From an uncultured SAR86 cluster bacterium (GTDB lineage Bacteria > Pseudomonadota > Gammaproteobacteria > Magnimaribacterales > D2472): a stretch of DNA of 64,000 nucleotides. Location of the stretch: positions 142,104 through 206,103 of the forward strand of contig CACIJE010000001.1 of assembly GCA_902586925.1 (NCBI GenBank), read 5' to 3'. The notes below the pieces were generated by a model. It had not been told where the DNA came from, made no database searches, and saw only the letters and a program-made list of their open reading frames with translations. How positions within the stretch are numbered: the first letter of the stretch is position 1; each line of letters starts with the position of its first letter. The position numbers were made by a program, and so were the translations under genes. This document shows positions 7,304 through 26,497 of this stretch, one piece after another.

Positions 7304-8260
7304 TCACCGGTTTTGATTTAAATCATGATCAACCATAATTTTAATTAAATCTTTAACTAGTACTTTGGGTTCAAAACCAAAATGACTTTTAGCCTTTGAA
7401 TAATCTGCAACTAACGAAAGATTTTTTGCAGGTCTTAAGAGATTTGCTGATGATTTAACATATTTTTTAGAATCCAAATTTAAATAATCGAATGTTTGTT
7501 CCACAAAATCTTCGACCGAAGTTTCTATTCCTGTGCCTATAATATAATCATCTGGATTTTCTTGTTGCATAATGTTCCAGGCTGCATCCATATATTCTTT
7601 AGCGTATCCCCAGTCTATTTTTGCAGACAAATCTCCTAAAACGAGCTCATCTTGAAGACCAAGTGAAATTTTTGCAGCTGATTTAGTTATTTTTCGTGTT
7701 ACATAATTGTCAGTTCTTCTTTCCGACTCATGATTATAGAAAATTGCACACGAAACAAACATATCATAATTATTTCTGTACATCCTGCATGTATGATATG
7801 CGAAAACTTTGGAGCATGCATAAGGATTTAAAGGAAAAAAGGGTGTGTTTTCATTTTGTGGTGTCTCGCTGATGTTGCCAAACATATTTGATGTTAAGGG
7901 TTGGAAATATTTAATATTTGAATTAGTATTCTTAATAATTTCAAGGATTCTTCCTACCGCTGCTCCTGTTACATCATAATTATATGAAGGTATATTAAAA
8001 CTTATTCCTGCATGATCTTGGTCAGCCTCATTGTAGATTTCATCAGGGTTCGAAACATTAATGGCATGCTGAATTGATACAGGATCGGCTAAATCACCAT
8101 AATGAAGTGTTACTTTCTCAATTATATGTTTTATATTTTGGAGGTTATCTTTTGCAGTTCTTCTAACTAAACCATGAACTTCGTAATTTTTGCTCAATAA
8201 AAGCTCAGCTAGAAAAGATCCATCCTGACCATTTATGCCCAATATTAACGCTTTTTTCAT
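7304..8260 (-). CDS. GDP-mannose 4,6-dehydratase-like SDR with altered active site
   Basis: This extended SDR (318 aa) clearly derives from the Gmd family: GINGQDGSFLAELL at the N-terminus, HYGDLAD, NHESERRTDNYVTRKIT and WGYAKEYMDAAW. It differs from Gmd in the active site. The Gmd triad segment T-S-E is T123-S124-N125 here, so the catalytic glutamate is replaced by asparagine, while Y147 and K151 remain. The [10 protein letters not shown] loop of Gmd reads EADQDHAGISF. A 4,6-dehydration therefore looks doubtful; epimerisation or reduction of a GDP-sugar, or use of a different GDP-sugar such as a heptose, are options. It overlaps the Nudix gene by 4 nt. Confidence 0.8.
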   Translation of the reverse strand: MKKALILGINGQDGSFLAELLLSKNYEVHGLVRRTAKDNLQNIKHIIEKVTLHYGDLADPVSIQHAINVSNPDEIYNEADQDHAGISFNIPSYNYDVTGAAVGRILEIIKNTNSNIKYFQPLTSNMFGNISETPQNENTPFFPLNPYACSKVFAYHTCRMYRNNYDMFVSCAIFYNHESERRTDNYVTRKITKSAAKISLGLQDELVLGDLSAKIDWGYAKEYMDAAWNIMQQENPDDYIIGTGIETSVEDFVEQTFDYLNLDSKKYVKSSANLLRPAKNLSLVADYSKAKSHFGFEPKVLVKDLIKIMVDHDLNQNR

Positions 8261-11505: not shown

Positions 11506-12540
11506 TTAAACTCTCTTTAAATCGCTTTCAACCATTTCTGTCACGAGATCTTCAAATTTAATTTTAGGCTCCCAGCCAAGCTTTTCTTTTGCCTTGGAGG
11601 AGTCTCCAATAAGCAAATCTACCTCTGTTGGCCTAAAGTACATTGGATCAACTTCAACTAAAACTTTACCTGTTGATTTATCAATTCCTTTTTCATTGAC
11701 GCCATCTCCTTCCCAAATAATGTCTTTTTTAACAGCTTTAAAAGCAAGCGATACAAATTCTCTAACCTCATGAGTTTCATTTGTTGCTACAACATAATCA
11801 TCAGGTTGTTCCATTTGAAGCATCATCCACATCATCTCAACATAATCTTTGGCATGCCCCCAGTCTCTTTTAGCATTTAAGTTTCCTAGATATAACTTAT
11901 CTTGGATACCTCTTTCAATAGCTGCAACTGCTCTGGTTATTTTTCTCGTAACAAAAGTTTCGCCTCTTCTTGGACTTTCATGATTAAACAATATCCCGTT
12001 AGAGGCATGAATATCATATGCTTCTCTGTAATTAACAACAATCCAATATGCATAAAGTTTAGCAACTGCATATGGACTTCTTGGATAAAAAGGTGTTTTT
12101 TCAGTTTGAGGAATTTCTTGAACTTTTCCATATAATTCCGAAGTAGATGCTTGATAAAATCTTGTTTTGTTTTCTAGATTGTTGAATCTAATTGCTTCCA
12201 GCAAAGCTAGAGTTCCTAAAGCATCTGAATTAGCAGTATATTGAGGCAAATCAAAACTTACTGCAACATGAGATTGTGCACCCAAATTATATACTTCTTC
12301 TGGTTGAATGGTTCCAATTAATTTTGAAAGATTTAAGTTATCAGTTAAATCTCCATAATGAAGAAAAAAATTAGAATCATCCAAATGTCTATCTTGATAT
12401 ATGTGATCAATTCTTTCAGTATTTATTAAAGATGATCTTCTTTTTATACCATGAACTTCGTATCCCTTTCCTAAAAGAAGTTCTGCTAAATATGAACCAT
12501 CTTGTCCTGTAATTCCAGTGATAAGAGCCTTTTTCTTCAT
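11506..12540 (-). CDS. gmd: GDP-mannose 4,6-dehydratase
   Basis: This protein (344 aa) catalyses GDP-D-mannose to GDP-4-keto-6-deoxy-D-mannose, the shared precursor of GDP-fucose, GDP-perosamine and GDP-colitose. The NADP motif [14 protein letters not shown] is at 9-22. The catalytic set is intact with E. coli-like numbering: T133-S134-E135 (ASTSELYGK) and Y157/K161. [10 protein letters not shown] is canonical. It serves as the internal reference for the altered paralogue at 7304-8260. It lies 22 nt downstream of wzz, and the flippase gene follows 11 nt later. Confidence 0.95.
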
Positions 12541-13620: not shown

Positions 13621-13707
13621 TGGTACCCGAGGCCGGACTTGAACCGGCACGATATTTCTATCGAGGGATTTTAAGTCCCTTGTGTCTACCAATTCCACCA
13701 CTCGGGC
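13621..13707 (-). tRNA. leuZ: tRNA-Leu (anticodon UAA)
   Basis: The minus strand folds as a type II tRNA with a long variable arm. Acceptor strands are GCCCGAG and CTCGGGT with a G-U closing pair as in E. coli leuZ; the anticodon loop CTTAAAA gives anticodon TAA at 13671-13673; the T-loop is GGTTCAAGTCC; CCA is encoded (13621-13623). In E. coli leuZ belongs to the glyW-cysT-leuZ tRNA operon next to pgsA-uvrC. Here it is 12 kb from tRNA-Cys and 14 kb from pgsA. Confidence 0.96.
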
Positions 13708-13748: not shown

Positions 13749-14138
13749 TTAAAGTTTACCTTCCTCTCTTAGCTGTTTTCTTATATTGGTTGCACTTATT
13801 TCTTCAACAGATTTTTCAAATACTTCTTCTTCAAATACATAACCTACACCCCTTCCATAAGTTATATTAACTATATTTGGAACAAGCATGATTTCATACT
13901 CGACACCTCTTGTAAAACCATCTTTCAATAAGTTTACTTCAATATTTTTGCATACCGAATCCCAATCAAAAGGATTGTCGTCTTGATTATTTCCACCGGA
14001 TGTACCTTGAACATCTCTTACCTGAATTATTACCTGTCCTGTTTTTGCACAACATCTTTTAAATAGGGCTTGATGGCCTTCGTGCCATGGCTGCCACCTT
14101 CCAAGCATTTGTACAGTAGGTTTTTTTGGATCAAACAT
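13749..14138 (-). CDS. Small nucleotidyltransferase (HxGH family)
   Basis: This protein (129 aa from the ATG at 14136-14138) has the cytidylyltransferase-like fold. It has GRWQPWHEGHQALF with the HEGH nucleotide-binding motif at about 19-22 and a C-terminal ISATNIRKQLR, the usual ISSTxxR counterpart. It transfers NMP to a phosphorylated small molecule; the substrate is unknown. The frame is open 28 codons further upstream, but those codons lie inside the kinase gene, and the TAA-A-ATG junction one base after the kinase stop is the likely coupled start. The kinase/nucleotidyltransferase pair suggests phosphorylation then activation of one compound. Confidence 0.75.
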   Translation of the reverse strand: MFDPKKPTVQMLGRWQPWHEGHQALFKRCCAKTGQVIIQVRDVQGTSGGNNQDDNPFDWDSVCKNIEVNLLKDGFTRGVEYEIMLVPNIVNITYGRGVGYVFEEEVFEKSVEEISATNIRKQLREEGKL

Positions 14139-14139
14139 T

Positions 14140-14559
14140 TTAAACCCTATTTTTTTTTTGAAGTATCTTTCTAGCGATTTCTTTGTGATTTTCTTCATTC
14201 CATTGTTTAATGTGGAAATCAACTCTTGTAGGATTTTGAAAAAGTTTATTAGTATCTTCGAATCTTCCCTCTTTTATTGTATCCATCCATACGACAATAT
14301 CCGCATCAAAGTTTTCTCTTGTTTCTCTTGTTGGACATACAAAGTCACAAATTACAAATCTGTCATGACTTTTTTCAAAATCTGCAAGTACTCTCATTCT
14401 TTTTGACTGCCTGTCTCTTCCTTCATTTGAAAAATCCCAATCATTAGTCATTTCTCTTACCTTGTCTGCGTTATACCAAGCTGCATTCAACAAAGGAACT
14501 AACCTTTCGGTTAGATAGGTTTTACCACTACCTGGCAGGCCCATAACTAATACTTTCAA
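14140..14559 (-). CDS. Small P-loop kinase (adenylylsulfate-kinase-like)
   Basis: This protein (139 aa) has a Walker A motif GLPGSGKT at residues 7-14. NADKVREMTNDWDFS and FVICDFVCPTRETR resemble CysC-type adenylylsulfate kinases, but it is shorter and its neighbour is a nucleotidyltransferase, not a sulfate-assimilation gene. The start is a TTG at 14557-14559: an AGAGG lies 9 nt upstream, and the next ATG (codon 6) would delete the first beta strand before the P-loop. A phosphorylated sugar or alcohol headgroup is as likely a product as PAPS. I recall similar small kinase and cytidylyltransferase genes in marine T4-like phages. Confidence 0.72.
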   Translation of the reverse strand: MKVLVMGLPGSGKTYLTERLVPLLNAAWYNADKVREMTNDWDFSNEGRDRQSKRMRVLADFEKSHDRFVICDFVCPTRETRENFDADIVVWMDTIKEGRFEDTNKLFQNPTRVDFHIKQWNEENHKEIARKILQKKNRV

Positions 14560-14607: not shown

Positions 14608-15477
14608 TTAATTTTCAGCTATTGCTATTAAAGTATCAGTCGCATCAAGCGTATTTAATGTTTTTTCATATATTTTTACGAGTTCAGGTGTTTCCATTGC
14701 AGCAATTTCACTTCTGTGGCCTCCCGGAATTTTGTCTTTAGCCCACTGAATATGATTTGCTATTGAAAATCTTTGTCTTCCATATATTTCGATATTCTTA
14801 TAACCGGACTTTAATAAAAATTTTTCCAATGATTCTCTAGTATGCAAAATTAAATGTTGTGACCATAAAGTAAAGTCAATAAACTCTTGAATTTTAAGAT
14901 TTTTAATTAAAAAATCTCTAGCATGGGGTACCTCAATAATAACTTTTCCACCTTTTACTAATTTGGCTTTAATTGATTCTAAATGATGAATAGGATTCTC
15001 AAAATGTTCTAGAACATGAAAAAGGAAACAAGACTCTATTGAATGATCATCAAGATTAGCAATGTCTTTATAGCAATCAATATTATTCTTATTAAGATCT
15101 TGCAGATAATTGTCTTGAACTTCTATTCCGATAGATTTTTTAGTTTCATTAATAGTATTTGTTAAAAAAGTGCCTTGTCCACAACCAAAATCGCAAATGA
15201 TTTTATTTTTGTAAAGATTAAAAAAATCGGATGCTCTTCTTTTATTATCTGCAATATCTTCAATTGATGCAGATTTAGCTGTTGCCTCTTCTTCTCTATA
15301 TTGACCTTGGATATATACATCATCACCTACAAAGAAATCATCAATAAAAATAATATCTGATACTGAATCCTTAAATACTTTCAGGTTTTCTACATCTCTA
15401 GTAGATTCTGAAAAGATTTCAGCAGTATTTTTAGAGGTTAATTCTAAAGACTCAAGCAAATTAAAGATTTTTCCCAT
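14608..15477 (-). CDS. Class I SAM-dependent methyltransferase
   Basis: This protein (289 aa from the ATG at 15475-15477) has SAM motif I IICDFGCGQGTFL (about 93-105) and the later motifs SCFLFHVLEHFENP and GGKVIIEVPHARDF, a Methyltransf_11/23-type domain. A GTG six codons upstream is also in frame, but AGGA sits 9 nt before the ATG and favours it. The roughly 75-residue N-terminal extension contains VGDDVYIQGQYREEE, which I do not recognise. The gene is 28 nt after the NeuB-fusion start side of the operon, so its target may be the sugar acid made by this module. Confidence 0.75.
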   Translation of the reverse strand: MGKIFNLLESLELTSKNTAEIFSESTRDVENLKVFKDSVSDIIFIDDFFVGDDVYIQGQYREEEATAKSASIEDIADNKRRASDFFNLYKNKIICDFGCGQGTFLTNTINETKKSIGIEVQDNYLQDLNKNNIDCYKDIANLDDHSIESCFLFHVLEHFENPIHHLESIKAKLVKGGKVIIEVPHARDFLIKNLKIQEFIDFTLWSQHLILHTRESLEKFLLKSGYKNIEIYGRQRFSIANHIQWAKDKIPGGHRSEIAAMETPELVKIYEKTLNTLDATDTLIAIAEN

Positions 15478-15505
15478 AGATTGTATTCCTATCACATCAA
15501 AATAA

Positions 15506-17392
15506 TTATTGTAATGTCTTTTCTAATTTATCAAGTGCGATCCAAAACCCCTCACCACCATTTTTATGACCTTGCCAAATCTCTGGGATAAAAAATGCGT
15601 CAGGACATGATGTTTTTAATATTTTTCCCAATAATTTAAAGTTTATTTCTCCTTCTCCTATTTGCAAGCCTTCTCCATTTACTCCATATGCATCCCCCAG
15701 ATGGAAATGAGCGCTATAAGGTGCAACTTCTTTACAAAATTCATAAAAATCATAACCAAAGTGATTACAAGTCAAAAATGAATGTGATATATCAAAACAC
15801 ATTCTAAGGTTTAGCTTTTTGCACCACTCTACAATTTCATGAGGATGAACAAATAAATTTTGATATCTCTGGCCACCAAAATGCCATGGGAAAGGAGCCA
15901 TTGTTTGAGGAATGATTTCTATGCCAGATAGATCTAATTCTTTTAAACTGTTCTTGAATATTTCGTACCCCTCCTGAACTTCATCATCAGAAAGGTTTGA
16001 GTCCATTGAAATACCTCCAATATTTGTAACTATCATAGGTCTAATTGTCTTTGGAAAATAAGTTTTTAATTTTTTTGTAATATCAATTACTTCTTGCATA
16101 TATTTAATTGATTGATTTCTATATTGATTATCAGGAGTTGCAAGATCTAATAACATGCTCCCTTCAAAAAGCTCAGGTGCATGAACTACAAAGTCATTTT
16201 TATATGTTCCATTGAGAAATTTAGAAATATCTAATTCCATGTCAGAATATGAAAGGTGAAACTCATATAAATCGGGAGATATTTTATCGTTATATTCATT
16301 AAAATCATGATATCTTACTGGCACTCCCCATGGGCGAGAAAATGTGTAATCTCTTGGTTCTATTCGAGTATTTTCTATATCACTCATGAAAAAGAAATCT
16401 TCTTCCTGCATATCATGTCGAACTTCTATACCTACCAACTCTTCAAAATATTGAGGAGAAAGACCCTGTCCAGGACTTCTGACTTTGATATCATCAGCCT
16501 TAAGAATCTCTCCTTTCTTTAAGCGTCTTGACGCAACCAAACTTTTTGCTAAATTTTCTCTATTTATCATCTCGCCTTGTGATAGTTTTCTTTTTGAGCC
16601 TCCTAATGCGCTCTCAATTTCTCTTATTCCATCGACCATCAATTTAAATTCAGACTGAGTTAAACTTGCTGCGTGATCAGGTCCTTCCATATTCCTATCT
16701 TGGGTAAAATGTCTTTCTAAAACACAAACACCAAAGCTAATTGAGGCTAAAGAAACATTGATGCCTCTCTCATGACCAGAATATCCAACATATTTGTGAA
16801 TCTTTTTAAGCTGATTAATCCATTTTAGGTTGATGTCATGTAATGGGGCTGGATAGGTGCTATTACAATGTAATAAGATAAATTTTGCTGAGTTTTTTGA
16901 AAGATATGAAACAGTTTTATGAATCTCGCTTTCCGTGCTCATTCCTGTTGATAAGATTAAAGGCTTAGCAGTATCTATAAGAGATTTTATGAGCGGTAAA
17001 TTTGTTAAGTCTGCTGATGCAACCTTAAATGCTTCCACGCCCATATTGTCTAGGAAGTTAACACTATCAGTGTCCCAAGGTGTGCATAAATATGTAATAT
17101 TTTTACTTGTTGCGTATTCAAATAATTTTTTATGTTGGTCCTTTGGTAACTCAAATCTATTTAATAAATCTATTACATATTCTGTTCCAAGATCCTCACC
17201 ATCTTTTACTAATGTCTTCTTTCTATAGACTTTATTTAAATGTCTCATTTGAAATTTTACACAATCGGCTCCTGCATCTTTTGCTTCATCGATCATATTG
17301 ATAGCTCTATCAAAATCACCATTATGATTATTTCCTATTTCAGCTATTACATATACCCTATTTTCACCTATTGAGTGTTCTCCAATTTTCAT
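15506..17392 (-). CDS. neuB: Nonulosonic acid synthase (NeuB) fused to a xylose-isomerase-like TIM barrel
   Basis: This protein (628 aa) has three parts. Residues 1-265 are the NeuB barrel: AEIGNNHNGD, KFQMRH, STGMSTESE, and GYSGHE and ERHFTQD with the metal-binding histidines (about H207 and H228). It condenses PEP with an N-acylated sugar to a nonulosonic acid. Residues about 280-340 form the SAF antifreeze-like domain (SLVASRRLKKGE). Residues about 350-628 are a xylose-isomerase/AP-endonuclease-2-type barrel (VVHAPE, MCFDISHS, HFHLGDAYG, GEGEINF, IPEIWQGH). The ATG at 17390-17392 is chosen because the 21 upstream codons lie inside the kinase gene. Normal NeuB proteins are about 340-350 aa, so the C-terminal barrel is an extra enzyme. 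Confidence 0.85.
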   Translation of the reverse strand: MKIGEHSIGENRVYVIAEIGNNHNGDFDRAINMIDEAKDAGADCVKFQMRHLNKVYRKKTLVKDGEDLGTEYVIDLLNRFELPKDQHKKLFEYATSKNITYLCTPWDTDSVNFLDNMGVEAFKVASADLTNLPLIKSLIDTAKPLILSTGMSTESEIHKTVSYLSKNSAKFILLHCNSTYPAPLHDINLKWINQLKKIHKYVGYSGHERGINVSLASISFGVCVLERHFTQDRNMEGPDHAASLTQSEFKLMVDGIREIESALGGSKRKLSQGEMINRENLAKSLVASRRLKKGEILKADDIKVRSPGQGLSPQYFEELVGIEVRHDMQEEDFFFMSDIENTRIEPRDYTFSRPWGVPVRYHDFNEYNDKISPDLYEFHLSYSDMELDISKFLNGTYKNDFVVHAPELFEGSMLLDLATPDNQYRNQSIKYMQEVIDITKKLKTYFPKTIRPMIVTNIGGISMDSNLSDDEVQEGYEIFKNSLKELDLSGIEIIPQTMAPFPWHFGGQRYQNLFVHPHEIVEWCKKLNLRMCFDISHSFLTCNHFGYDFYEFCKEVAPYSAHFHLGDAYGVNGEGLQIGEGEINFKLLGKILKTSCPDAFFIPEIWQGHKNGGEGFWIALDKLEKTLQ

Positions 17393-17411: not shown

Positions 17412-18767
17412 TCATTCTTCTCTAGTTTTCCAGGTCTGTAATCCAAGGTCATCAAAAATAAATCTGAATATATTTAAGTTCATTTTTTCAAGTTTTTTAA
17501 CTACTTTTTGATGCTTGGATGGATCTACATAGAACAAAAAGAATCCACCTCCACCAGCCCCTAGTAACTTACCCCCAATAGCTCCGCTTTTCTTTGCCTC
17601 ACTATATATATTATCAATTTCAGCTGAAGATATGCTTTTACTAAATCTTCTTTTATTTTCCCAGGCTTTATCCATTGAAATACCAAAATCATTTAATTTT
17701 CCTCTCAATAATTGATTTTTAATTTCATAGGTTAAATCTACATTATGTTTAACCAAACTATCTATATCTTTATTTTGCATGCTCTGTTTTTGATCAATAT
17801 GAATATTTCCAGAATTATGAGAAATACCTGTATCGCATAAGATAAGGTTTTCCTCTAACTCTAATTTAGTTGATTTTTGAATTCTTAAAGGATGAATAAT
17901 ATTTTTATCTTTATTAAATTCTATAAAATTAAATCCTCCAAAAGTACATGCATACTGATCTTGCCAACCTCCGGCAATATTTAAGCTTAATCTTTCTGCT
18001 TGAAAAGCAAGCTCAGATAGTTCATACGTATCCCATGGATCTTTTCTAAATTCATTAAAGCAACCAAGAACTGCTGCAGAAATAGCAGAAGAGCCTCCAA
18101 GACCTGAGTTTGATGGGAAATCTGAATATATCTCTAGTTCAAAACCATATTCAGGACTTATTAATTTTATTATTGATTGAATTAAATTTAAATTAGATTT
18201 TTTTTTCAAGGCTAAATCAAGGTTATCTTCTTCTATAACTTCATTTAAATCTCTAGATTTAATAATAACTTTTTTATCACTTCTTTGTTTAAGAAGTGCA
18301 TGAGAATATATAGATATTGTTGCGTTAATTACCGCGCCATTTGATTTAGAGAAAAAGTGTGTTAGATCTGACCCGCCTCCTCCAAAACTTACTCTAACAG
18401 GTGCTTTAGACCTAGCAAAATTTTTCTTTTCGCCTGAGATTGGTAAGTTGCTACGTGTTATTAACTTCAATAATATTTTATTGTCATCTACCAACGGAAT
18501 TGCTTTTGCTCCATTATCAAGAAGTTTAAGTAGAGTTTCTCTTGAGTCATTACTTGATGCTGAAATAAATGACACATTCATACATGAACTTATGGGTTTA
18601 TCTAAAGTTATTCCATCCAAAAGTTTTCTTCTTATATCACCATCAGTCGCTATACCAATAAGTTTATTGGATTTATTAACGATGCAAATTATTCCATCTC
18701 CATTAGATTCTATTTTTTCTAATGCAGTCTTAATTGTTTCTGTTTTTTGGATGGTAAAATTATTCAT
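17412..18767 (-). CDS. GHMP sugar kinase with N-terminal CBS pair (HddA-like)
   Basis: This protein (451 aa) begins with two CBS repeats (about 5-58 and 62-110; TDGDIRRKLLDG and VDDNKILLKLITR), which often bind adenine nucleotides. The kinase follows: KAPVRVSFGGGGSD (121-134), ATP loop SGLGGSSA (221-228) and GKLLGAGGGGFFLF near the C-terminus. This is the D-glycero-D-manno-heptose-7-phosphate kinase (HddA) subfamily, which phosphorylates C1. GmhB and GmhA genes next door fit heptose phosphate chemistry. The CBS pair suggests control by cellular energy charge (inference). It is 19 nt upstream of the NeuB fusion. Confidence 0.85.
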   Translation of the reverse strand: MNNFTIQKTETIKTALEKIESNGDGIICIVNKSNKLIGIATDGDIRRKLLDGITLDKPISSCMNVSFISASSNDSRETLLKLLDNGAKAIPLVDDNKILLKLITRSNLPISGEKKNFARSKAPVRVSFGGGGSDLTHFFSKSNGAVINATISIYSHALLKQRSDKKVIIKSRDLNEVIEEDNLDLALKKKSNLNLIQSIIKLISPEYGFELEIYSDFPSNSGLGGSSAISAAVLGCFNEFRKDPWDTYELSELAFQAERLSLNIAGGWQDQYACTFGGFNFIEFNKDKNIIHPLRIQKSTKLELEENLILCDTGISHNSGNIHIDQKQSMQNKDIDSLVKHNVDLTYEIKNQLLRGKLNDFGISMDKAWENKRRFSKSISSAEIDNIYSEAKKSGAIGGKLLGAGGGGFFLFYVDPSKHQKVVKKLEKMNLNIFRFIFDDLGLQTWKTREE

Positions 18768-18847: not shown

Positions 18848-19378
18848 TTAGAATATTAATTCATCTTTAATATCAGAAAGTTTTTTTACTGACTTATAAG
18901 CATGATTACAAGTTTTTAAACCAAAATAAATCGATTTACCAATATTTGAAGCTATTCCTGCTTCAATATCAGACATTTGATCTCCAACAATAATAGATTT
19001 TTTTGGATCAATATTAAATTCCCTACAAGCCTTTAAAATCATTCCAGGCGAAGGTTTTCTGTACTTGCTTTTTTTTCTATATTTTTCGATAACTGCGTCT
19101 TCATGAAAAGGACAAAAATATGTTTTTGTAATTTTTCCACCATTTTGAAAAAACATTTCTGACATCCATTGTGTTAGTTCATTAAAATCTTTCTCTGTGT
19201 ATAAACCCTTTCCAATGCCTGCTTGATTAGTGATAACAATTACTAAAAACTTTTTTGATGTTGCAAAGGAAACAAGATCAAAAATTCCATCATTAAAGAT
19301 AAAATCTTCTTTCTTATGCACATATCCATAGTCGATGTTAATAACTCCATCTCTGTCTAAAAAAAGTGCTGAATACAT
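18848..19378 (-). CDS. gmhB: D-glycero-D-manno-heptose 1,7-bisphosphate phosphatase-like HAD protein
   Basis: This protein (176 aa) is a HAD phosphatase of the histidinol/heptose-phosphate type: nucleophile D8 and D10 in FLDRDGVIN, VITNQAGIGKG at about 48-58, RKPSPGM and VGDQMSDIEAG. It would remove the 7-phosphate from heptose 1,7-bisphosphate. Unlike E. coli GmhB, the structural zinc site is largely gone: C89 remains, but the segment before RKP reads KSKY where CDC is expected and the histidine position is Phe. Such zinc-free variants occur in the wider family, so activity is not excluded. It lies 7 nt after gmhA. Confidence 0.85.
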   Translation of the reverse strand: MYSALFLDRDGVINIDYGYVHKKEDFIFNDGIFDLVSFATSKKFLVIVITNQAGIGKGLYTEKDFNELTQWMSEMFFQNGGKITKTYFCPFHEDAVIEKYRKKSKYRKPSPGMILKACREFNIDPKKSIIVGDQMSDIEAGIASNIGKSIYFGLKTCNHAYKSVKKLSDIKDELIF

Positions 19379-19385
19379 GAAATAT

Positions 19386-20000
19386 TTAAAGTTTGGTTAA
19401 ATTTTCCTCAACTTTAAGACATACTTCATGACCTATTATGGTATGAATCTCCTGAATAATTGCTGTGTTTGAGGAGGGTGCAAAGAAAACATAGTCACAA
19501 GTATCTTTAATTTCAATATCTTTATTATTTCCTGTAAAAAGAATTACTTTTATATTTAACGACTTTGCCATAGATATTGCAGACAAAACATTTTTACTTG
19601 TTCCGCTTGTTGAATAACAAAAGAGAATATCCCCTTCATTTCCCAATGTTTCAACCTGTCTAGAGAAAACATTTTCATATCCAAAATCATTTGACCAAGC
19701 TGTTATAAATGAAGTATCAACCGTTAATGACATTGCAGCAAATCCTCGTCTAAAATTTTTGTGATTTAGGGTAGCGCAATATTCTGCTGCCATATGCTGG
19801 CTTTCTGCAGCACTACCTCCGTTTCCGCAAAACATCAACTTTTTATTTTTAGTCAGAGAATTTGTAATAATTGATGAAACATCATTTATTGAGCTCTTAA
19901 AAAAATCATGGTTTGAACTTATTATTTCAGCTCGAATTTTCAACCTATCTTTAATACTCACTTCATATCCATAAAATTTACCAAATAGTTCTTCCACCAT
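19386..20000 (-). CDS. gmhA: Phosphoheptose isomerase-like SIS protein
   Basis: This SIS-domain protein (204 aa) has FCGNGGSAAESQHMAAE (58-74) and YSTSGTSKNVL (129-139), the GmhA signatures, and a C-terminal QEIHTIIGHEVC carrying the catalytic histidine. GmhA converts sedoheptulose 7-phosphate to D-glycero-D-manno-heptose 7-phosphate in the cytoplasm. The start ATG overlaps the upstream SDR stop by 23 nt, and no nearer in-frame ATG exists. With gmhB and an HddA-type kinase it completes a route to heptose 1-phosphate. Confidence 0.88.
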   Translation of the reverse strand: MVEELFGKFYGYEVSIKDRLKIRAEIISSNHDFFKSSINDVSSIITNSLTKNKKLMFCGNGGSAAESQHMAAEYCATLNHKNFRRGFAAMSLTVDTSFITAWSNDFGYENVFSRQVETLGNEGDILFCYSTSGTSKNVLSAISMAKSLNIKVILFTGNNKDIEIKDTCDYVFFAPSSNTAIIQEIHTIIGHEVCLKVEENLTKL

Positions 20001-20787
20001 CTATGATCATTGATGAACCAGTCATATAAGATGAAGCATCTGAAAGTAAAAATACTATAGCGCCTCTATATTCTTCTTTATTTGCCATCCTTCCAAGAGG
20101 TATCAATTCTGATACTTTACTTAGAAAATCTGAATTTTGGTCATCTCTTACCCCGCCAGGATGCAAAGTATTACATCTTATTCCATACTCATGCCAATAG
20201 GTTGCAGTATATTTGGTTAAACCAACTAATGCATGCTTTATTACTGAATATGTTACTGGTTTATAATTTTTTGAAATACTTTTTTCGTTATTGTAAATTC
20301 TATGGTCAGGAGCAATTAATCCAAGATCAGACGAAATATTTATAATTGAACCGTATTTATTTTTAGCCATATTGCTTCCGAAAATCATTGTACATATTAG
20401 GGCACCTTTAATACCAACATTCAACTCAAGATCCCAATTGTCAAGATTAAAATTCTCGAGTTCATTTGAATCGTTCAAACTCTGACTTACTATTGGATTG
20501 ATAGCAGCATTGTTAATTAAACCAACAATATTGTCTTTGCCCTTATTTATTATTTTTAAAACATTTTCAACCTGATTTTTATCTGTGATATCACACTCGA
20601 AAATATTAATATTTTCATTTTTATAATCTATAAGTTTGTTTTTTAATGCCTCTAGCTTTTGTTTATTAATATCGATTAACGCCACTGAACCACCATGTTC
20701 AAGGACTGCTTTTGCATGTTGCTCCCCCAATAAACCTGCTGCTCCAGTTATTACAACTAATCCATTAATTTTAAATATTGATGTCAT
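19978..20787 (-). CDS. SDR-family oxidoreductase (sugar dehydrogenase-like)
   Basis: This classical SDR (269 aa) has the NAD(P) motif TGAAGLLG (14-21), NNAA at 92-95, Ser152/153 (ISSDLG) and the catalytic pair Y180/K184 (YSVIKHALVGL). The C-terminus GSSMIIDGGRTIW is typical. It probably oxidises or reduces a hydroxyl/keto group on a sugar of this pathway; PtmA of Campylobacter legionaminate clusters is a related-looking SDR found with NeuB and NeuA homologues. It is paired with a second SDR 2 nt upstream. Substrate unknown. Confidence 0.8.
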   Translation of the reverse strand: MTSIFKINGLVVITGAAGLLGEQHAKAVLEHGGSVALIDINKQKLEALKNKLIDYKNENINIFECDITDKNQVENVLKIINKGKDNIVGLINNAAINPIVSQSLNDSNELENFNLDNWDLELNVGIKGALICTMIFGSNMAKNKYGSIINISSDLGLIAPDHRIYNNEKSISKNYKPVTYSVIKHALVGLTKYTATYWHEYGIRCNTLHPGGVRDDQNSDFLSKVSELIPLGRMANKEEYRGAIVFLLSDASSYMTGSSMIIDGGRTIW

Positions 20788-20789
20788 TT

Positions 20790-21545
20790 TTATATTGATC
20801 TCGTTTGACCGCCATCAACTAATAATAGAGAACCTGACATGAAAGAATTCTTTGTATTTGTAAATAATTTTATCGCTCTATAAATATCATCTGGCTTAGC
20901 AAATCTTTTTACAGGAACATCTTTCATTAAAGATGATTTTATATTTTTATTAAGTCTCATTTTTTTATCCCAAACCGAACCTTTAAATAAAATGTTTCCG
21001 CAAACCAAACCATTTAAATTAATATTTTTTCCTTCGAGGTATTTTGAATAGACTTTTATATATGTATTTAATGCGGACTTAGCTACAGAGTATGTTGCCG
21101 GGGCTCCAGGAACATATTCGTGTCCACATATAGATGATATACAAACAATTGATGACGGAGATTTTTGTGGATTTTTTAAAAATGCATCAATTGTATTTAT
21201 TGTTGAAAATAAATTTAAGTCGAGCATCCTCTTCCATTCTTTTGGATCTTCCTTACCAATTGGAACAGAGGATCCTGAGCCAACATTACAAATAATGATG
21301 TCAATGTTTCCAACTGATTTTCTAGCATTATTTATGAGTTTTAAACATTCATTTGGTTTGGTAACATCACAAGCATAACCATCAACTTCCAGCTTTTTTT
21401 TTGCTCTTTCTAATCTAGGTTTTGAAGATCCGTTTACGAAAACATTATAATTATCATTAATAAATAATTCTGATAAATAATATCCCAGGCCGCTCGTTGA
21501 TCCAGTAATTAAAACATTCTTCTTAAAATCTTTCTTCAAAATCAT
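20790..21545 (-). CDS. SDR-family oxidoreductase
   Basis: This classical SDR (251 aa) has TGSTSGLG (14-21), S138 (ISSICGHE) and Y152/K156 (YSVAKSALN). The structural NNAG motif is CNVG (86-89), a mild departure. The C-terminus SGSLLLVDGGQTRSI is conserved SDR sequence. It is not closely similar to its neighbour SDR, so the pair probably performs two different redox steps, for instance oxidation before and reduction after an aminotransfer or epimerisation (inference). It overlaps the isomerase gene by 4 nt. Confidence 0.8.
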   Translation of the reverse strand: MILKKDFKKNVLITGSTSGLGYYLSELFINDNYNVFVNGSSKPRLERAKKKLEVDGYACDVTKPNECLKLINNARKSVGNIDIIICNVGSGSSVPIGKEDPKEWKRMLDLNLFSTINTIDAFLKNPQKSPSSIVCISSICGHEYVPGAPATYSVAKSALNTYIKVYSKYLEGKNINLNGLVCGNILFKGSVWDKKMRLNKNIKSSLMKDVPVKRFAKPDDIYRAIKLFTNTKNSFMSGSLLLVDGGQTRSI

Positions 21546-22366
21546 ATATCCAAGAGTTCGTCTATTATTTTAATATATCTTAACATTGCTTGGACATGCT
21601 TGCCTGAGTGATCTCTTGCAGTTTGCATAGAAAAATTACCTTCATATTTCTCTTTCCTTAGAACTTTAAGGCAATCTTTTAAATTAGCGTTGCCTTCACC
21701 TAACGGAACAGTTGTTCCATTTAAGATCCTATCTTTTACGTGAATATGAATTATTCTGTCAAAATATGAATCAAATTCCTCATAAAAATCATAGCCTAGA
21801 CTTGCGCTGTTTCCAATATCATAATTAATACCAAATAATTCACTAGGCAGTTCAGCAATAAATGACTTAAGTTTTTTTGGTTCAAAATCACTTTCAATTG
21901 CAACTTTTATTTCTTTTTTTTCTAATACTCTTGTAAGAGATTTTAAGAAATCAATAGCTATTTTATGATTAATGTTTTTTATAGAAGACTCATCGACAAA
22001 AGGTATCACAATAATTTTACAATCAAGATTACTTAATCCTTCAATAACTTCTTCAGTTATAAATTTCATTTGGTTGAAATTATCTATTCCTCCAAACCAT
22101 GGTGGGCTGTGCATAATGAAATCAGCAGTGCATGCTAAGGGATTTATTTTTGCTTTTGAAAGTTTTCCCTTCAAATATTCTTGACCAATTTTGCTAGTAA
22201 TAGGATTTTCCCAAATATTTTTTAAATCTACGGTTAGTTCAATGAAATTAATATTGTTTTCTGAAGCAATTTTTAATTCTTTTTCCCAATCATCTCTAGG
22301 AAATGCTTGAATTTTGCCATCAATTAAGTCTACTAATCTGCCTTGAACAAAAGCTATTTTATTCAT
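21542..22366 (-). CDS. Sugar phosphate isomerase/epimerase (xylose-isomerase-like TIM barrel)
   Basis: This protein (274 aa) has AP-endonuclease-2/xylose-isomerase-like features: FVQGRLVD at the N-terminus, FIELTVD, VAIESDF (metal Glu), NYDIGNSASLGYD (Asp), HIHVKDR (His) and PLGEGNANLKDC. These motifs form the divalent-metal site of sugar isomerases and epimerases. It overlaps the VOC gene by 8 nt and the downstream SDR by 4 nt, so it is part of a translationally coupled run. It is a second member of the fold found at the C-terminus of the NeuB fusion. Substrate unknown. Confidence 0.8.
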   Translation of the reverse strand: MNKIAFVQGRLVDLIDGKIQAFPRDDWEKELKIASENNINFIELTVDLKNIWENPITSKIGQEYLKGKLSKAKINPLACTADFIMHSPPWFGGIDNFNQMKFITEEVIEGLSNLDCKIIVIPFVDESSIKNINHKIAIDFLKSLTRVLEKKEIKVAIESDFEPKKLKSFIAELPSELFGINYDIGNSASLGYDFYEEFDSYFDRIIHIHVKDRILNGTTVPLGEGNANLKDCLKVLRKEKYEGNFSMQTARDHSGKHVQAMLRYIKIIDELLDI

Positions 22367-22787
22367 ATACCTGAACGAGTTCGATTAGATTTCCTTCAAA
22401 ATCTTCACAAAAAGCAACTTTTGCAGTTTTAGTGTCGTTAAATTTTGGTGAATTAATAAAATTAATACCAAGATTTTTTAGTTTTTTTTCTACTTCTTCC
22501 AAGTTTGATACATTAAGGGCTATATGATTAAATCCTGAAGATAAAAGTCCCTTATATCTGTTTTTGGGATCATGTGATACATATTCAATTAACTCAATAC
22601 AAGATCCGTTCTCAGCATAGCATTTACAAGTTCGTGCAACACCATTTTTGATACCAGTTAAATGTTCATAAAATTCTCCTGATTCAACTTGGTCGACTTT
22701 TGGTTTAAATCCAAAAATAGAATCATATAAATTAAGAGATTTCTCAATGCTATTCACTATTAAGCCTACGTGTCTTAGAGTAATCAT
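22359..22787 (-). CDS. VOC (glyoxalase/bleomycin-resistance fold) protein
   Basis: This protein (142 aa) has two beta-alpha-beta-beta-beta modules and a full set of candidate metal ligands in the glyoxalase positions: H6 (RHVGLIV), E65 (CIELIEY), H88 (FNHIALNV) and E137 (LIELVQV). The HEHE set occurs in glyoxalase I and methylmalonyl-CoA epimerase, so proton abstraction next to a carbonyl, such as epimerisation of a keto-sugar, would fit this cluster (inference). It overlaps the methyltransferase gene by 4 nt and the isomerase gene by 8 nt. Confidence 0.75.
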   Translation of the reverse strand: MITLRHVGLIVNSIEKSLNLYDSIFGFKPKVDQVESGEFYEHLTGIKNGVARTCKCYAENGSCIELIEYVSHDPKNRYKGLLSSGFNHIALNVSNLEEVEKKLKNLGINFINSPKFNDTKTAKVAFCEDFEGNLIELVQVYE

Positions 22788-23488
22788 TCTGGCTTAGTTG
22801 CAATGCCTAACAACATTACCTCTCTTGAAAATCTAACCCATTTAAATTTGTTACTTAGGAATCTTGGAGCTAACAATTGTGTTAAGAATGAGATTGGATT
22901 GAAGATTAATTTCCACTTGCCCCATAATAATGGCAACTGTTTGAAGAAACTAACACTAATGTTGCAAAATCCATGCATGTCCAAGATATCCCTTAACGAA
23001 CTTTTCATAAAAGGTGTTCGATGAGTATAGTCTTCAAAATAAATTCTATAGTTGTGCTCCCAAGATGGAGCCATTACGATTATTAAACCACCGGGCTTGA
23101 GGCATCTTTTACATTCTTTAATTAATATAGCTGGGTCGTAAAAGTGTTCTATGACAGATTTTGAAAAAATTATATCAAAATAATCGTCTTCAAATGGCAT
23201 ACCATTATTTTCTATGTCAGCTTGGAATAACTTGGCATTTGGACAATGTTTTTTTGCAGCATTTGTAAAATCAACTCCATAACCCTCACATCCATAGCTT
23301 ATAAAGCCATTTAAGAAATCACCTCTACCACAACCAACATCTAGTAGTTTTGATTCCTTTGCAATTTCTAATTTTTTAATAAGATATGAAGATAGTTTAT
23401 AAGGATAATCTGTTAATGGTTTTACTTCCTCGTTATATATTACATCGACGTAATTTTCATTAATTGAGTCATTTTTTTTTAATTTCAT
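22784..23488 (-). CDS. Class I SAM-dependent methyltransferase
   Basis: This protein (234 aa) has motif I LLDVGCGRGDFL (48-59), the acidic FQADIEN, and DIIFSKSVIEHFYDP with CLKPGGLIIVMAP as later motifs: a Methyltransf_11 enzyme. The C-terminus (RFLSNKFKWVRFSREVMLLG) is basic and hydrophobic and could sit on the membrane. It is a second methyltransferase in this module, unrelated in detail to that at 14608. It overlaps its neighbours by 4 nt on both sides. Target unknown; O- or N-methylation of the sugar is a guess. Confidence 0.78.
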   Translation of the reverse strand: MKLKKNDSINENYVDVIYNEEVKPLTDYPYKLSSYLIKKLEIAKESKLLDVGCGRGDFLNGFISYGCEGYGVDFTNAAKKHCPNAKLFQADIENNGMPFEDDYFDIIFSKSVIEHFYDPAILIKECKRCLKPGGLIIVMAPSWEHNYRIYFEDYTHRTPFMKSSLRDILDMHGFCNISVSFFKQLPLLWGKWKLIFNPISFLTQLLAPRFLSNKFKWVRFSREVMLLGIATKPE

Positions 23489-24855
23489 AAATATTCTCCA
23501 ACAATTTCTTTAATTATTGAAATACCTTCAAGCAAAGCTTCATCTGAAATATTTAATGGTGGTCCAATTTTTATTGACTCTCTTCCTGTATGGACAACCA
23601 ATAACCCACTTTGCATACATTTTTCAGATATCTCTGAAGGTACTTTACATTCAGGAATTCTTTTTTGTGGATCTTGAAATAAAATTGAAGCTATCATTCC
23701 TTTGCCCAAAACATCAGATATTAACCCATTTGAATTATCTTTAATTTCATTAAGGCCTTTGTGAAGGATAAGCCCTTTTCTATGTGACTCATCAATTAAA
23801 TTACTTTCGATGATTTCATCTATTACTGCCATCCCTGCAGAGCAACCTAAAGGATTTGCAGAATGAGTACTACTCATATTTCCTATCTCAGGTAGATCCA
23901 TTACCTCTTTGCTTCCAACAACTCCTGAAATAGGATAACCATTACCCATACCTTTACCAAGGCACAACAAATCTGGCTTAACGTCATAATGTTCGTAGCC
24001 AAATGCTTTTCCTGTTCTCCCAAAGCCTGATTGCATTTCATCAAATGTCATTAGTACATCATTTTTTTTACAATAATCTTCTGCAGCTTGAACAAAATCA
24101 GATGGATAAAATATTGCACCCCATCCTTGGAAGGTCTCTAAAATCATTCCACAAATATCTTTTGAAGGATCTATGCCAAAATCATTAAATGATTTTAGTT
24201 GTGCATTGAAAAAACTTTCGCCGGATTCGTTTGTTAAAGCCCATGGATAGGGAAATTTGAGGTGATGGATATTCTCATCATGATATCCAACCCATTCTTT
24301 CTGTTTAAGATTACCACTCATCATCTGTGCTGCCAAGGTTCTGCCATGCCAATTATTTTCGAAAGCAATTATTCCTAATTTTCTTTTTTTCTTTGCTTGT
24401 CCATTCATTCTCATTAATTTAAATGCTGCTTCCGTGGATTCAGTTCCAGCAGACATTAAAAAAGCTTTTTCGAAAGTTGGTCCCGCAAATTCTATGAGTT
24501 TTTCCAAATATTGAGCTCTTATTTCATTTCCATAAGCATAGCAGCCCATAATTGGCTTTTCTAAAGCTGTGTTCATGTAATCTAGAACTCTTTTATTTGA
24601 GTGCCCAACATTTGAAAAGAATATAGCAGAAGTAAAATCTATAAATTTATTTCCAGAGGCATCAAAAATATTAAAATTTGATGCCGAGTCCCACACAAGA
24701 GGAAGTTGACCATGCATTGATCTTGATTCATATTTATCCAATCTCTCTAAAATGTCATATGTACCTTTGCAAGGGATTTCAGTTTGAATTAATCTATTTT
24801 TAGTTTTGATTAATGGTACTGTTTGAGATTTTCTTGAAAATGTATGAGACGACAT
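23485..24855 (-). CDS. Class III PLP aminotransferase (glutamate-1-semialdehyde/omega type)
   Basis: This protein (456 aa) is a class III aminotransferase: SAGTESTEAAFK (135-146), FENNWHGRT, cofactor Asp in TFDEMQSGFGRTG (270-282) and the Schiff-base lysine K301 in LGKGMGNGYPISG. Members act on terminal amino groups of substrates such as ornithine, GABA or glutamate semialdehyde. In sugar clusters they are less common than DegT enzymes and would aminate a terminal aldehyde or keto group. It lies 3 nt after the neuA-like gene and overlaps the methyltransferase by 4 nt, so it probably works on the sugar acid or a side chain. Confidence 0.82.
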   Translation of the reverse strand: MSSHTFSRKSQTVPLIKTKNRLIQTEIPCKGTYDILERLDKYESRSMHGQLPLVWDSASNFNIFDASGNKFIDFTSAIFFSNVGHSNKRVLDYMNTALEKPIMGCYAYGNEIRAQYLEKLIEFAGPTFEKAFLMSAGTESTEAAFKLMRMNGQAKKKRKLGIIAFENNWHGRTLAAQMMSGNLKQKEWVGYHDENIHHLKFPYPWALTNESGESFFNAQLKSFNDFGIDPSKDICGMILETFQGWGAIFYPSDFVQAAEDYCKKNDVLMTFDEMQSGFGRTGKAFGYEHYDVKPDLLCLGKGMGNGYPISGVVGSKEVMDLPEIGNMSSTHSANPLGCSAGMAVIDEIIESNLIDESHRKGLILHKGLNEIKDNSNGLISDVLGKGMIASILFQDPQKRIPECKVPSEISEKCMQSGLLVVHTGRESIKIGPPLNISDEALLEGISIIKEIVGEYL

Positions 24856-24858
24856 ATT

Positions 24859-25578
24859 TTATTTAAAGATTTTATCAAGTTTACTATCTTGTTCTAATGT
24901 GTATTCTAAATATTTGAAATCATCAACGCAATCAATTTCAACAGCATATTCTGTCAAGAATGGTATCGAGTAATCGCCATGAATGTTATTGTTTCTTCTA
25001 ATATTTGAAGTTACTAAAATATCAACATAGCCGTTTGCTTGATATGTTTTAGGAAAGGCTTGTCTGGGCGCATTATTATCAAGTCTAAAATTTTTTGAAA
25101 CACCAATAGGTTTTAAAAAGTTATTCTCATCAATTTCAAGTGTTTTGTATGCTGTTTCAGACATTTCGTGAACTGATCTTAGTGAGCTACATTCTTCGCT
25201 ATTTTGAGCTAATTTAATTGCAGCATTTAAAATAAATGGATCCCTAATTGGTGTTGTTGGTCTTAAATGAACAATATAATTTGGCTCCATGGATTCATCT
25301 TTAAAAAAATTTAATGCATGTTCAATAAATTCAAGATCTGTTGATGAGTCATCAGATATTTCGTCTGGTCGCATAAAAGGTATATCTGCTCCATATCTAA
25401 TTGCTATATCTGCATATTCTTTTGAATTTGTAGATACCACTACTCTATCAATTAGTTTAGACTTTTTAGCTGCAGCAATTGACCAGCCCAAAAGAGGATG
25501 TCCATTTAATTTCATTATATTTTTATCAGGCACACCTTTTGAGCCTGATCTTGCTGGAATTAAAGCAAAAGTCTTCAT
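24859..25578 (-). CDS. neuA: CMP-sugar synthetase (acylneuraminate cytidylyltransferase)
   Basis: This protein (239 aa) starts MKTFALIPARSGSKGVPDKN, the CTP-binding P-loop-like signature of NeuA/KdsB-type enzymes. RVVVSTNSKEYADIA, FMRPDEISDDSSTD and HLRPTTPIRDP match NeuA. It activates a nonulosonic acid with CTP for transfer. The start is fixed at ATG 25576-25578: a longer in-frame reading would begin at 25671 and translate the tRNA-Cys gene, which cannot be coding. Together with the NeuB fusion it indicates that the end product of the module is a CMP-activated ulosonic acid. Confidence 0.88.
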   Translation of the reverse strand: MKTFALIPARSGSKGVPDKNIMKLNGHPLLGWSIAAAKKSKLIDRVVVSTNSKEYADIAIRYGADIPFMRPDEISDDSSTDLEFIEHALNFFKDESMEPNYIVHLRPTTPIRDPFILNAAIKLAQNSEECSSLRSVHEMSETAYKTLEIDENNFLKPIGVSKNFRLDNNAPRQAFPKTYQANGYVDILVTSNIRRNNNIHGDYSIPFLTEYAVEIDCVDDFKYLEYTLEQDSKLDKIFK

Positions 25579-25595
25579 AAAATCCCAATATATAT

Positions 25596-25669
25596 TGGAG
25601 GCTGAAGCCGGAATCGAACCGGCGTTAACGGCTTTGCAGGCCGCTGCATAACCACTCTGCCATCCAGCC
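25596..25669 (-). tRNA. cysT: tRNA-Cys (anticodon GCA)
   Basis: Minus-strand cloverleaf with acceptor strands GGCTGGA and TTCAGCC (one G-U pair), discriminator U73 typical of tRNA-Cys, anticodon loop CTGCAAA with GCA at 25635-25637, T-loop GGTTCGATTCC and encoded CCA at 25596-25598. The neuA start codon lies 17 nt downstream, so both are probably on one transcript and the mRNA is released by tRNA processing. In E. coli cysT is between glyW and leuZ beside pgsA. Confidence 0.96.
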
Positions 25670-25723
25670 AATTAAAAAGATGAGTATTGTATCTCAATTT
25701 AATTATCATTAATTATATTTTGT

Positions 25724-26497
25724 TTATTTTGGGGAATAATACTCCGTTCTTTCAATATCATCTTCAACACAGGCCTCACCGTATTGAATTTCAATAAGAT
25801 GACATGTTTCATCAAAAGGATTTGTTATTTGATGCCATTCCCCAAGTGGAACTAAATAATGATCAAATTTGTTAAGTTGAATGTTTTCCTTTTTATTAGG
25901 ATCATCTTTACTATAGTTGACAACACAAGAGCCTTTGCTTACAAGCCAAATCTCATTTCTTTTAAAATGTTTCTGAAAACTCATTCCCTTGCCAGGCTTA
26001 ACTACCAATTCCTTTACTTTTACGTGGTCTTCTTCAAATAAATTATAGAAGGAGCCCCACAATCTTTCTTCATAATAATATTGCCAGTTCTTTAATATCC
26101 ATGATGAAGAATTCTTCTTATCATCTCCGCCCACACTGAATAAAAACTCTACGCCCTCTACGGACATCTCGGTTATATTATCTTTACTTCTATCTCCACC
26201 ATTTGCAAAAGCAATCTCATCACTAGGATGCATTTTTTTTACTTTTATTAGGGCGTTAGTAGCACTACCAACATCATCATCTTCAAAATCAATAACATCA
26301 TCTACCATTGATAAGTTCTCTATTATTGATTTCCTCTCATTGAACGTCATAAAAAACTTACCCTTTTTGTCAACAAGCCATTGATCACTGTTTAATGCAA
26401 CTATAAGTTTATCGCCGAGCTTTTTTGCTGATTCAAAATATGCTATGTGCCCAGAATGAATAGGATCAAAACCACCACTTACAACTATTATTTTCAT
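25724..26497 (-). CDS. Nucleotidyltransferase (RfaE2/HldE-C-like) fused to a cupin domain
   Basis: This protein (257 aa) has two domains. Residues 1-135 are a nucleotidyltransferase close to the heptose-1-phosphate adenylyltransferase half of HldE: GGFDPIHSGHIAYFESAKKLG, VALNSDQWL, NGGDRSKDNI and a NSSSWIL tail. Residues 145-257 are a cupin like the type II phosphomannose isomerase domain of ManC/AlgA: RLWGSFYNL, VKELVVKPGKGMSFQKH, NEIWLVSKG, VPLGEWHQITNP. The combination suggests activation plus isomerisation of a sugar phosphate in one chain, probably a heptose given gmhA/gmhB. It is 4 nt after the short dehydrogenase gene. Confidence 0.8.
   Translation of the reverse strand: MKIIVVSGGFDPIHSGHIAYFESAKKLGDKLIVALNSDQWLVDKKGKFFMTFNERKSIIENLSMVDDVIDFEDDDVGSATNALIKVKKMHPSDEIAFANGGDRSKDNITEMSVEGVEFLFSVGGDDKKNSSSWILKNWQYYYEERLWGSFYNLFEEDHVKVKELVVKPGKGMSFQKHFKRNEIWLVSKGSCVVNYSKDDPNKKENIQLNKFDHYLVPLGEWHQITNPFDETCHLIEIQYGEACVEDDIERTEYYSPK

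Follow-up and report, generated by a model that had tools for sequence, protein, structure and literature searches.

A NeuB-SAF-barrel fusion gene

We analysed a window of 64,000 nucleotides from an uncultured SAR86 cluster bacterium (assembly GCA_902586925.1, contig CACIJE010000001.1), which carries on its minus strand a gene (15506..17392) that joins a NeuB synthase and its SAF (antifreeze-like) domain to a xylose-isomerase-like (XI-like) barrel in a single open reading frame (ORF) of 628 amino acids. The frame starts with ATG at 17392, contains no internal stop and has its stop codon ending at 15506; the TTG start of the mechanically called ORF lies 21 codons upstream of this ATG. All three domains scored above their Pfam cut-offs, placing the protein both in the NeuB/SAF superfamily and in PF01261. 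The NeuB domain (residues 33-266; 16595..17296, minus strand; PF03102, E 5e-83) retains its catalytic residues and is followed by the SAF domain (residues 283-330; 16403..16546, minus strand; PF08666, E 1.4e-8) and by the barrel (residues 345-628; 15509..16360, minus strand), within which residues 398-609 match AP_endonuc_2 (PF01261; E 3e-19, 70 bits against a cut-off of 31.1). The nearest NCBIfam models, NeuB_NnaB (339 against 399.65) and PseI (264.5 against 340.25), both fell under their equivalog cut-offs. The initial annotation had placed a single-gene fusion at exactly these coordinates, and the 628-residue frame and its Pfam domains bear this out: that the fusion is genuine, with NeuB, SAF and a complete XI-like barrel, is virtually certain.

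We scanned genome_contigs, described as covering 84,980 species, and obtained 432 relatives, the best 80 of which were kept and inspected; 78 of these encode the entire fusion, while the other two encode both domains and are cut by a contig end. The C-terminal domain of a same-genus genome copy is 98% identical to that of the window. Recurrence in all 80 kept loci, together with this copy, rules out the frameshift artefact that the initial annotation had named as fatal to its proposal. Judging by record titles, carriers among the best 80 include Proteobacteria, Bacteroidetes, Chlorobium, Nitrospinales, Nitrospirota, Cyanobium and relatives of Bdellovibrio. The spread is patchy, covering 34 of 117 Bradyrhizobium genomes, 2 of 34 genomes of the window's genus and 4 of 369 genomes of its class (the window counted in the last two), and every profile match in the Bradyrhizobium (34/34) and same-class (4/4) genomes sits in a frame of at least 624 amino acids. 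No close unfused relative of the barrel was seen in the 117 Bradyrhizobium and 369 class genomes or among the best 80 of the 432 relatives. An unfused barrel in genome G034 (285-residue frame, 26% identity, E 1e-7) proved generic, and a 77-residue match in G283 (E 9e-4), where the longest ORF looks aminotransferase-like by eye, was likewise rejected as a close relative. The viral contigs and phages searched held no relatives of the fusion, none of the E. coli genomes searched carried the gene of locus L008, and the one plasmid match came from Ensifer canadensis, Ensifer being a rhizobium related to Sinorhizobium fredii.

In a tree of NeuB domains, a single branch (100/98) split 25 sampled fused rows from 34 others, which is consistent with one fusion event. 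The deep relative L127 sits on a long branch with unsure placement, and its SAF domain went undetected by Pfam. An N-terminal CBS domain is present on the fusion in L008, L010 and L125, while in the main clade CBS is found on the kinase encoded directly upstream (17412..18767 in the window), as if this domain had moved between pathway partners.

Fold and active sites of the two halves

The completeness of the barrel, claimed in the initial annotation from its motifs, was checked by modelling. For residues 345-628 (with 46 homologues), AlphaFold predicted eight strands alternating with helices in (beta/alpha)8 order, with a mean predicted local distance difference test score (pLDDT) of 91.9, a predicted template modelling score (pTM) of 0.91 and no residue below 50; the full-length fusion gave a pLDDT of 91.6 and a pTM of 0.75. 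The predicted model thus leaves the fold class clear. The top PDB match by VIA-align was the D-tagatose-3-epimerase-like MJ1311 (3wqo; Z 23.9, 2.6 A over 243 residues), followed by two Thermotoga maritima entries of ketose-3-epimerase type (Z 22.9 and 22.8) and Art22 (22.7). UlaE and the Mycobacterium tuberculosis endonuclease IV (5zhz) tied at Z 22.2, and xylose isomerases reached at most 20.9. Because isomerases and endonuclease IV score alike, the PDB ranking does not select the chemistry of the barrel.

Conservation says more about whether the barrel is active. Among its 78 invariant columns, 39 fall within the 64 residues at the C-terminal strand ends (61%), while 11% of residues on the opposite face are invariant, and shifting the strand map circularly gives as many in only 1 of 283 cases. 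Since the invariant residues crowd the catalytic face, the barrel looks catalytic; it is probably an active sugar enzyme of NeuB's pathway.

Ketose 3-epimerases of the D-tagatose 3-epimerase type hold their metal with four ligands, Glu-Asp-His-Glu, both Glu residues serving as acid/base. We compared the fused barrel with XI2, a second, stand-alone XI-like barrel encoded nearby (21542..22366, minus strand; PF01261, E 3e-15), by profile alignment (hhalign; probability 80%, E 1.4e-5). Three presumed ligands, all invariant, fall at XI-like ligand positions: Asp534 (barrel Asp190, codon 15791..15793, aligned with XI2 Asp183), His564 (barrel His220, codon 15701..15703, aligned with XI2 His209) and Glu604 (barrel Glu260, codon 15581..15583), all on the minus strand. 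The first position is Gln496 (barrel Gln152, codon 15905..15907, minus strand), which pairs with a Glu that is itself invariant in 44 of 44 XI2 rows. This Gln occupies all 47 rows of alignment A2 and, when a motif was made from the residues around it, all 88 matches, a count that includes near-copies and copies of the window; among the deep fused relatives, L126 has Glu and L127 Gln. The initial annotation had credited the barrel with all metal-site motifs, which holds for Asp, His and the last Glu and fails for the first Glu. With a Gln-Asp-His-Glu site in place of Glu-Asp-His-Glu, a canonical two-Glu epimerase can't be assumed. The fused barrel resembles MJ1311 (3wqo), T. maritima 5h1w and UlaE (3cqj) over the whole fold (Z 22.2-23.9) and in its presumed Asp, His and Glu ligands, and differs from these ketose 3-epimerase-type proteins in its first ligand, in its fusion to NeuB and in sequence (14-24% identity in the structural alignments). 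In the hhalign alignment XI2 shows the reverse arrangement, keeping the first Glu and having Gln placed at the fourth position.

Turning to the NeuB half, we compared 15 positions with Neisseria meningitidis NeuB, mapped by motif, in 86 fused rows (84 distinct sequences, two rows being copies of the window; the cut loci L050 and L070 were left out). Eleven agree with N. meningitidis in every one of the 86 rows (E25, K53, T110, K129, S132, S154, Y186, S213, H215, H236 and D247), among them the catalytic and metal residues E25, K53, K129, H215, H236 and D247. The other four are changed in every fused row: Glu134 to Asp, Asn184 to Ser, Asp214 to Gly and Arg314 to Ser. The change at Asn184 tells little, because this residue is absent from all 34 comparators too. 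The fused protein is thus akin to NeuB/SiaC (PDB 1xuu, 1xuz, 4ipi) in its NeuB barrel, SAF domain and 11 of the 15 tested positions, and departs from it in these four and in the extra barrel of 280 residues.

Of the four changes, that at Arg314 bears most directly on the acceptor. Arg314 is the sole SAF residue in the active site and positions the N-acetyl group of N-acetylmannosamine (PMC6795526, available in part); in PDB chains 4ipi and 4ipj the position is filled by Ala and Lys, in agreement with the R314A and R314K mutants of that study. In the window the position is taken by Ser306 (codon 16475..16477, minus strand; phmmer alignment to 4ipi/4ipj), and with Ser in 86 of 86 rows the fused family lacks the N-acetyl-placing arginine of N-acetylneuraminate or pseudaminate synthases proper. 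The deep relatives L126 and L127 have Thr and Ala. Arg is kept in 7 of 8 second NeuB genes of fusion loci and in 10 of 26 other NeuB proteins, so the loss is constant within the fusion, yet not restricted to it. From the loss of Arg314 in every fused row, the acceptor of the fused NeuB is probably a C2-hydroxy aldose, a product type open to isomerases. An aldose-ketose isomerase requires oxygen, not an acetamido group, at C2, and in this respect both halves of the fusion point the same way; it seems probable that the barrel supplies a C2-hydroxy aldose instead of standing in for NeuC or LegG.

The initial annotation had further suggested that the barrel replaces a missing precursor epimerase. 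The window's own genome (94.58% complete) indeed has no PF02350 protein above the cut-off, its only match being a weak one (19.3 bits). Such a protein is present, though, in 12 of the 14 other fusion-bearing genomes chosen, so the fusion is no general stand-in for that enzyme.

Proposed function of the fused protein

The architecture itself is already known from Serratia marcescens. An isomerase/epimerase domain has been noted on the NeuB of its KL1/KL2 capsule loci, which are told apart by neuA and neuB alone; carriers make the deaminated sialic acid KDN at about 20:1 over N-acetylneuraminic acid (Neu5Ac), and deletion of neuB lowers sialic acid fourfold and abolishes the capsule, with sialic acid restored by plasmid-borne neuB (PMC9000132, available in part). 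As in the window, NeuB and an XI-like domain form one protein and a NeuA gene lies in the cluster. The Serratia gene differs in being longer (2241 bp), which appears close to the CBS-bearing fusions L008 (751 amino acids) and L125 (750 amino acids), and the available part of PMC9000132 mentions no heptose-type genes and assigns no role to the extra domain. Since a C2-hydroxy acceptor (mannose) would give KDN, the Serratia product independently fits the lost Arg314. KDN from S. fredii is also cited there, alongside which the Ensifer plasmid match is suggestive only. Our literature search found the fusion described in PMC9000132 alone, subscription papers and domain databases lying outside that search, so more mentions are possible; the available part of PMC7591256 proved to have no bearing on it. 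What is new here is the breadth of the fusion, the lost Arg314, the Gln metal site and the heptose-type cassette. NeuB does join pathway partners elsewhere: oral fusobacteria have NeuB/NeuA and NeuB/NeuD fusions (PMC4045943, available in part), which likewise unite NeuB with an enzyme of the same pathway, there a CMP (cytidine monophosphate) transferase or an acetyltransferase instead of an isomerase-type barrel.

We propose, with a probability of about one half, that the protein is a bifunctional ulosonic-acid synthase whose barrel makes the C2-hydroxy aldose that NeuB uses. The barrel, its metal held by Gln, Asp, His and Glu, would form this aldose from a ketose or via epimerisation; the NeuB domain would join it to phosphoenolpyruvate, giving a deaminated (KDN-like) 3-deoxy-2-ulosonic acid; and the adjacent NeuA (or SpsF) would activate the product as a CMP-sugar for a cell-surface glycan. 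We infer the catalysis by the barrel, its action before NeuB, the isomerisation and the identity of the window's aldose. That an isomerase or epimerase supplies NeuB's aldose was also the suggestion of the initial annotation, and an isomerase coupled to NeuB stands as the most economical reading.

It may be instead that the barrel performs another step of the pathway, acting, for example, on a keto-sugar made by a short-chain dehydrogenase/reductase (SDR) or, once NeuB has done its work, on the ulosonic acid; channelling or co-regulation would then account for the fusion. We consider this unlikely while granting it real weight: two SDRs, an aminotransferase and the second XI barrel in the cassette make several keto intermediates likely, and XI-fold chemistry is varied, as weak matches of XI2 to the IolE and CbiR models illustrate. 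Against it, in the Ensifer locus L010, with about 14 kb of flank per side, the fusion lies beside NeuA and no other recurrent cassette family was labelled, and the Serratia loci are distinguished by neuA and neuB only (PMC9000132), which together link the barrel with the very step that NeuB performs. Agreement with L010 is seen in L128, L130 and L132, though their contigs end nearby. A non-catalytic barrel, serving the synthase as a structural or allosteric domain, would account for the replacement of a canonical metal ligand by an invariant Gln. It is rather improbable, given the invariant residues on the catalytic face, the three other invariant presumed ligands and the occurrence of the same fusion with Glu in L126.

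The barrel might also be a hydrolase, releasing the acceptor from a nucleotide or phosphate as LegG or PseG does. This would be in keeping with the fold, which endonuclease IV and CbiR share: endonuclease IV chains reach Z 21.0-22.2, level with sugar epimerases, and genes of nucleoside diphosphate-heptose type lie nearby. Endonuclease IV has the extra zinc ligands Asp229 and His231, and at these positions the fused barrel appears, by eye only, to have Gly. We regard a hydrolase as very unlikely. The idea that two genes were joined by a sequencing or assembly error found no support and is already refuted by the distribution given above and by the architecture described in Serratia (PMC9000132).

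Several points weigh against the bifunctional synthase. The fold matches do not favour isomerases, endonuclease IV (5zhz) standing level with UlaE; Gln replaces a Glu that acts in ketose epimerases as ligand and acid/base; loss of Arg314 is not unique, as 16 of 26 other NeuB proteins, all barrel-less, carry Asn or Gly there; and the cassette of the window already encodes a GmhA-like aldose-ketose isomerase, so that a second is not obviously needed. The KDN synthase of Bacteroides thetaiotaomicron, moreover, presumably has no fused barrel. That synthase is named in PMC9000132, which also reports that Serratia strains make some Neu5Ac, counting against strict specificity; and the Serratia protein, likened here by its kinds of domain, is a putative member of this family.

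The choice of acidic sugars that bacteria display lies with NeuB synthases, and sialic acid is the usual basis for guessing the substrates of these enzymes. The fusion represents a separate NeuB branch (432 relatives in one scan), whose acceptor pocket differs and to which an isomerase-like enzyme is permanently joined, and the lost Arg314 and Serratia KDN give a testable role to a domain left unexplained in the available part of PMC9000132. If the bifunctional synthase is real, many clusters read as sialic-acid pathways would be KDN-type. With its heptose-type genes, the cassette makes an undescribed sugar more likely: speculatively, and doubtfully, the window's clade might use a heptose (C7 + C3) to make a non-acylated 3-deoxy-ulosonic acid of ten carbons on one polypeptide, encoded in a portable cassette with a widely recurring core. 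A literature search for ten-carbon ulosonic acids found no paper. Bradyrhizose, a bicyclic sugar that came to mind as a product from the many Bradyrhizobium matches, was dropped, though not excluded; it has been tied to an eleven-gene cluster in a text whose available part does not contain the word neuB (PMC4743980).

The tRNA-bordered cassette and its counterparts

In the window and in genome G011 the fusion belongs to a cassette of 11.9 kb between genes for tRNA-Leu (13621..13707) and tRNA-Cys (25596..25669), both on the minus strand in the window. The shared block, all of it on that strand, begins with a methyltransferase (MT7; 14608..15495), the last gene in common with G011, and the fusion, directly upstream of which lies the CBS-GHMP kinase (HddA-like; 17412..18767). 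It continues with a GmhB-like heptose bisphosphate phosphatase (18848..19378; TIGR00213, 166.6 bits against a cut-off of 149.6), a GmhA-like SIS isomerase (19386..20000; TIGR00441, 158.7 bits, below the cut-off of 209.45), a PtmA-like SDR oxidoreductase (19978..20787), a second SDR oxidoreductase (20790..21545), XI2, a glyoxalase-fold protein (22359..22787; PF00903, E 5.5e-12), a methyltransferase-like protein (22784..23488; assigned to family MT13 by blastp to related loci, its fold by eye), a class-III aminotransferase (23485..24855; PF00202, E 8.6e-88) and a NeuA/PseF-like CMP-ulosonate cytidylyltransferase (24859..25584; TIGR03584, 139 bits, below the cut-off of 205.7). The mechanical ORF of this last gene (24859-25671) extends into the tRNA-Cys gene, and its true start is likely the ATG at 25584. 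Two small genes at 13749-14559 of the window were not seen in the matching stretch of G011.

Eight sister genomes were searched, and a tRNA-Cys match was found in seven, six of which were examined. In all six, at most 0.9 kb separates tRNA-Leu from tRNA-Cys, with one predicted gene between them in three. The cassette genes thus arrive together, which favours a single pathway for them. In the six sister genomes other polysaccharide genes follow, and four have a homologue of NeuB length (33-37% identity).

Neighbours were counted in 49 non-Bradyrhizobium loci with flanks of up to 10 kb; L004 and L009 (not fused) were left out, as were 31 Bradyrhizobium-type loci, because ORF calling in GC-rich sequence was messy. 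The CBS-GHMP kinase accompanies the fusion in 46 of the 49, including all 43 with more than 1.4 kb upstream, and its frame overlaps that of the fusion by four bases in 19. NeuA or SpsF was present in 44 loci, SDRs in 36, an HddC-like nucleotidyltransferase in 34, a GmhA-like gene in 33, an aminotransferase of one of three classes in 31, XI2 in 30 and a GmhB-like gene in 12. NeuA also lies near the distant forms L010, L128, L130 and L132.

GmhA- or GmhB-type genes occur in 35 of these 49 loci. The best NCBIfam models of the kinase, GmhA-like, GmhB-like and nucleotidyltransferase genes all belong to the GDP (guanosine diphosphate)-D-glycero-D-manno-heptose pathway (GmhA, HddA, GmhB, HddC), GmhB (TIGR00213) being the sole one above its cut-off; the GmhA-, HddA- and HddC-like members stay under their equivalog cut-offs. 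In the window's genome an HddC-like query found distant matches only (24-27% identity) and no close HddC-like gene. The heptose link is not general, as no GmhA- or GmhB-type genes were found around L010, on the short contigs L128, L129 and L130, or in L132, whose contig ends close to the fusion. In L128 (4294-6289) the fusion is followed by a GDP-mannose-dehydratase-like gene, an aldolase of the DHDPS family (DapA/NanA-type) and a NeuA-like gene, with no heptose genes there.

Elsewhere in the window, a cytidylyltransferase-like domain is fused to a cupin of mannose-phosphate-isomerase type (25724-26497), and two GDP-mannose-4,6-dehydratase-like genes, assigned by eye, lie in one cluster (7304-8260 and 11506-12540), the first visibly diverged. 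Locus L096 (1474-3867) encodes a separate NeuB fusion, in which Pfam places an N-terminal domain resembling flavin amine oxidase or UDP (uridine diphosphate)-galactopyranose mutase before NeuB-SAF; fusions of this type, 794-843 amino acids long and with Gly at the Arg314 position, are also found in L098, L101, L102 and L103.

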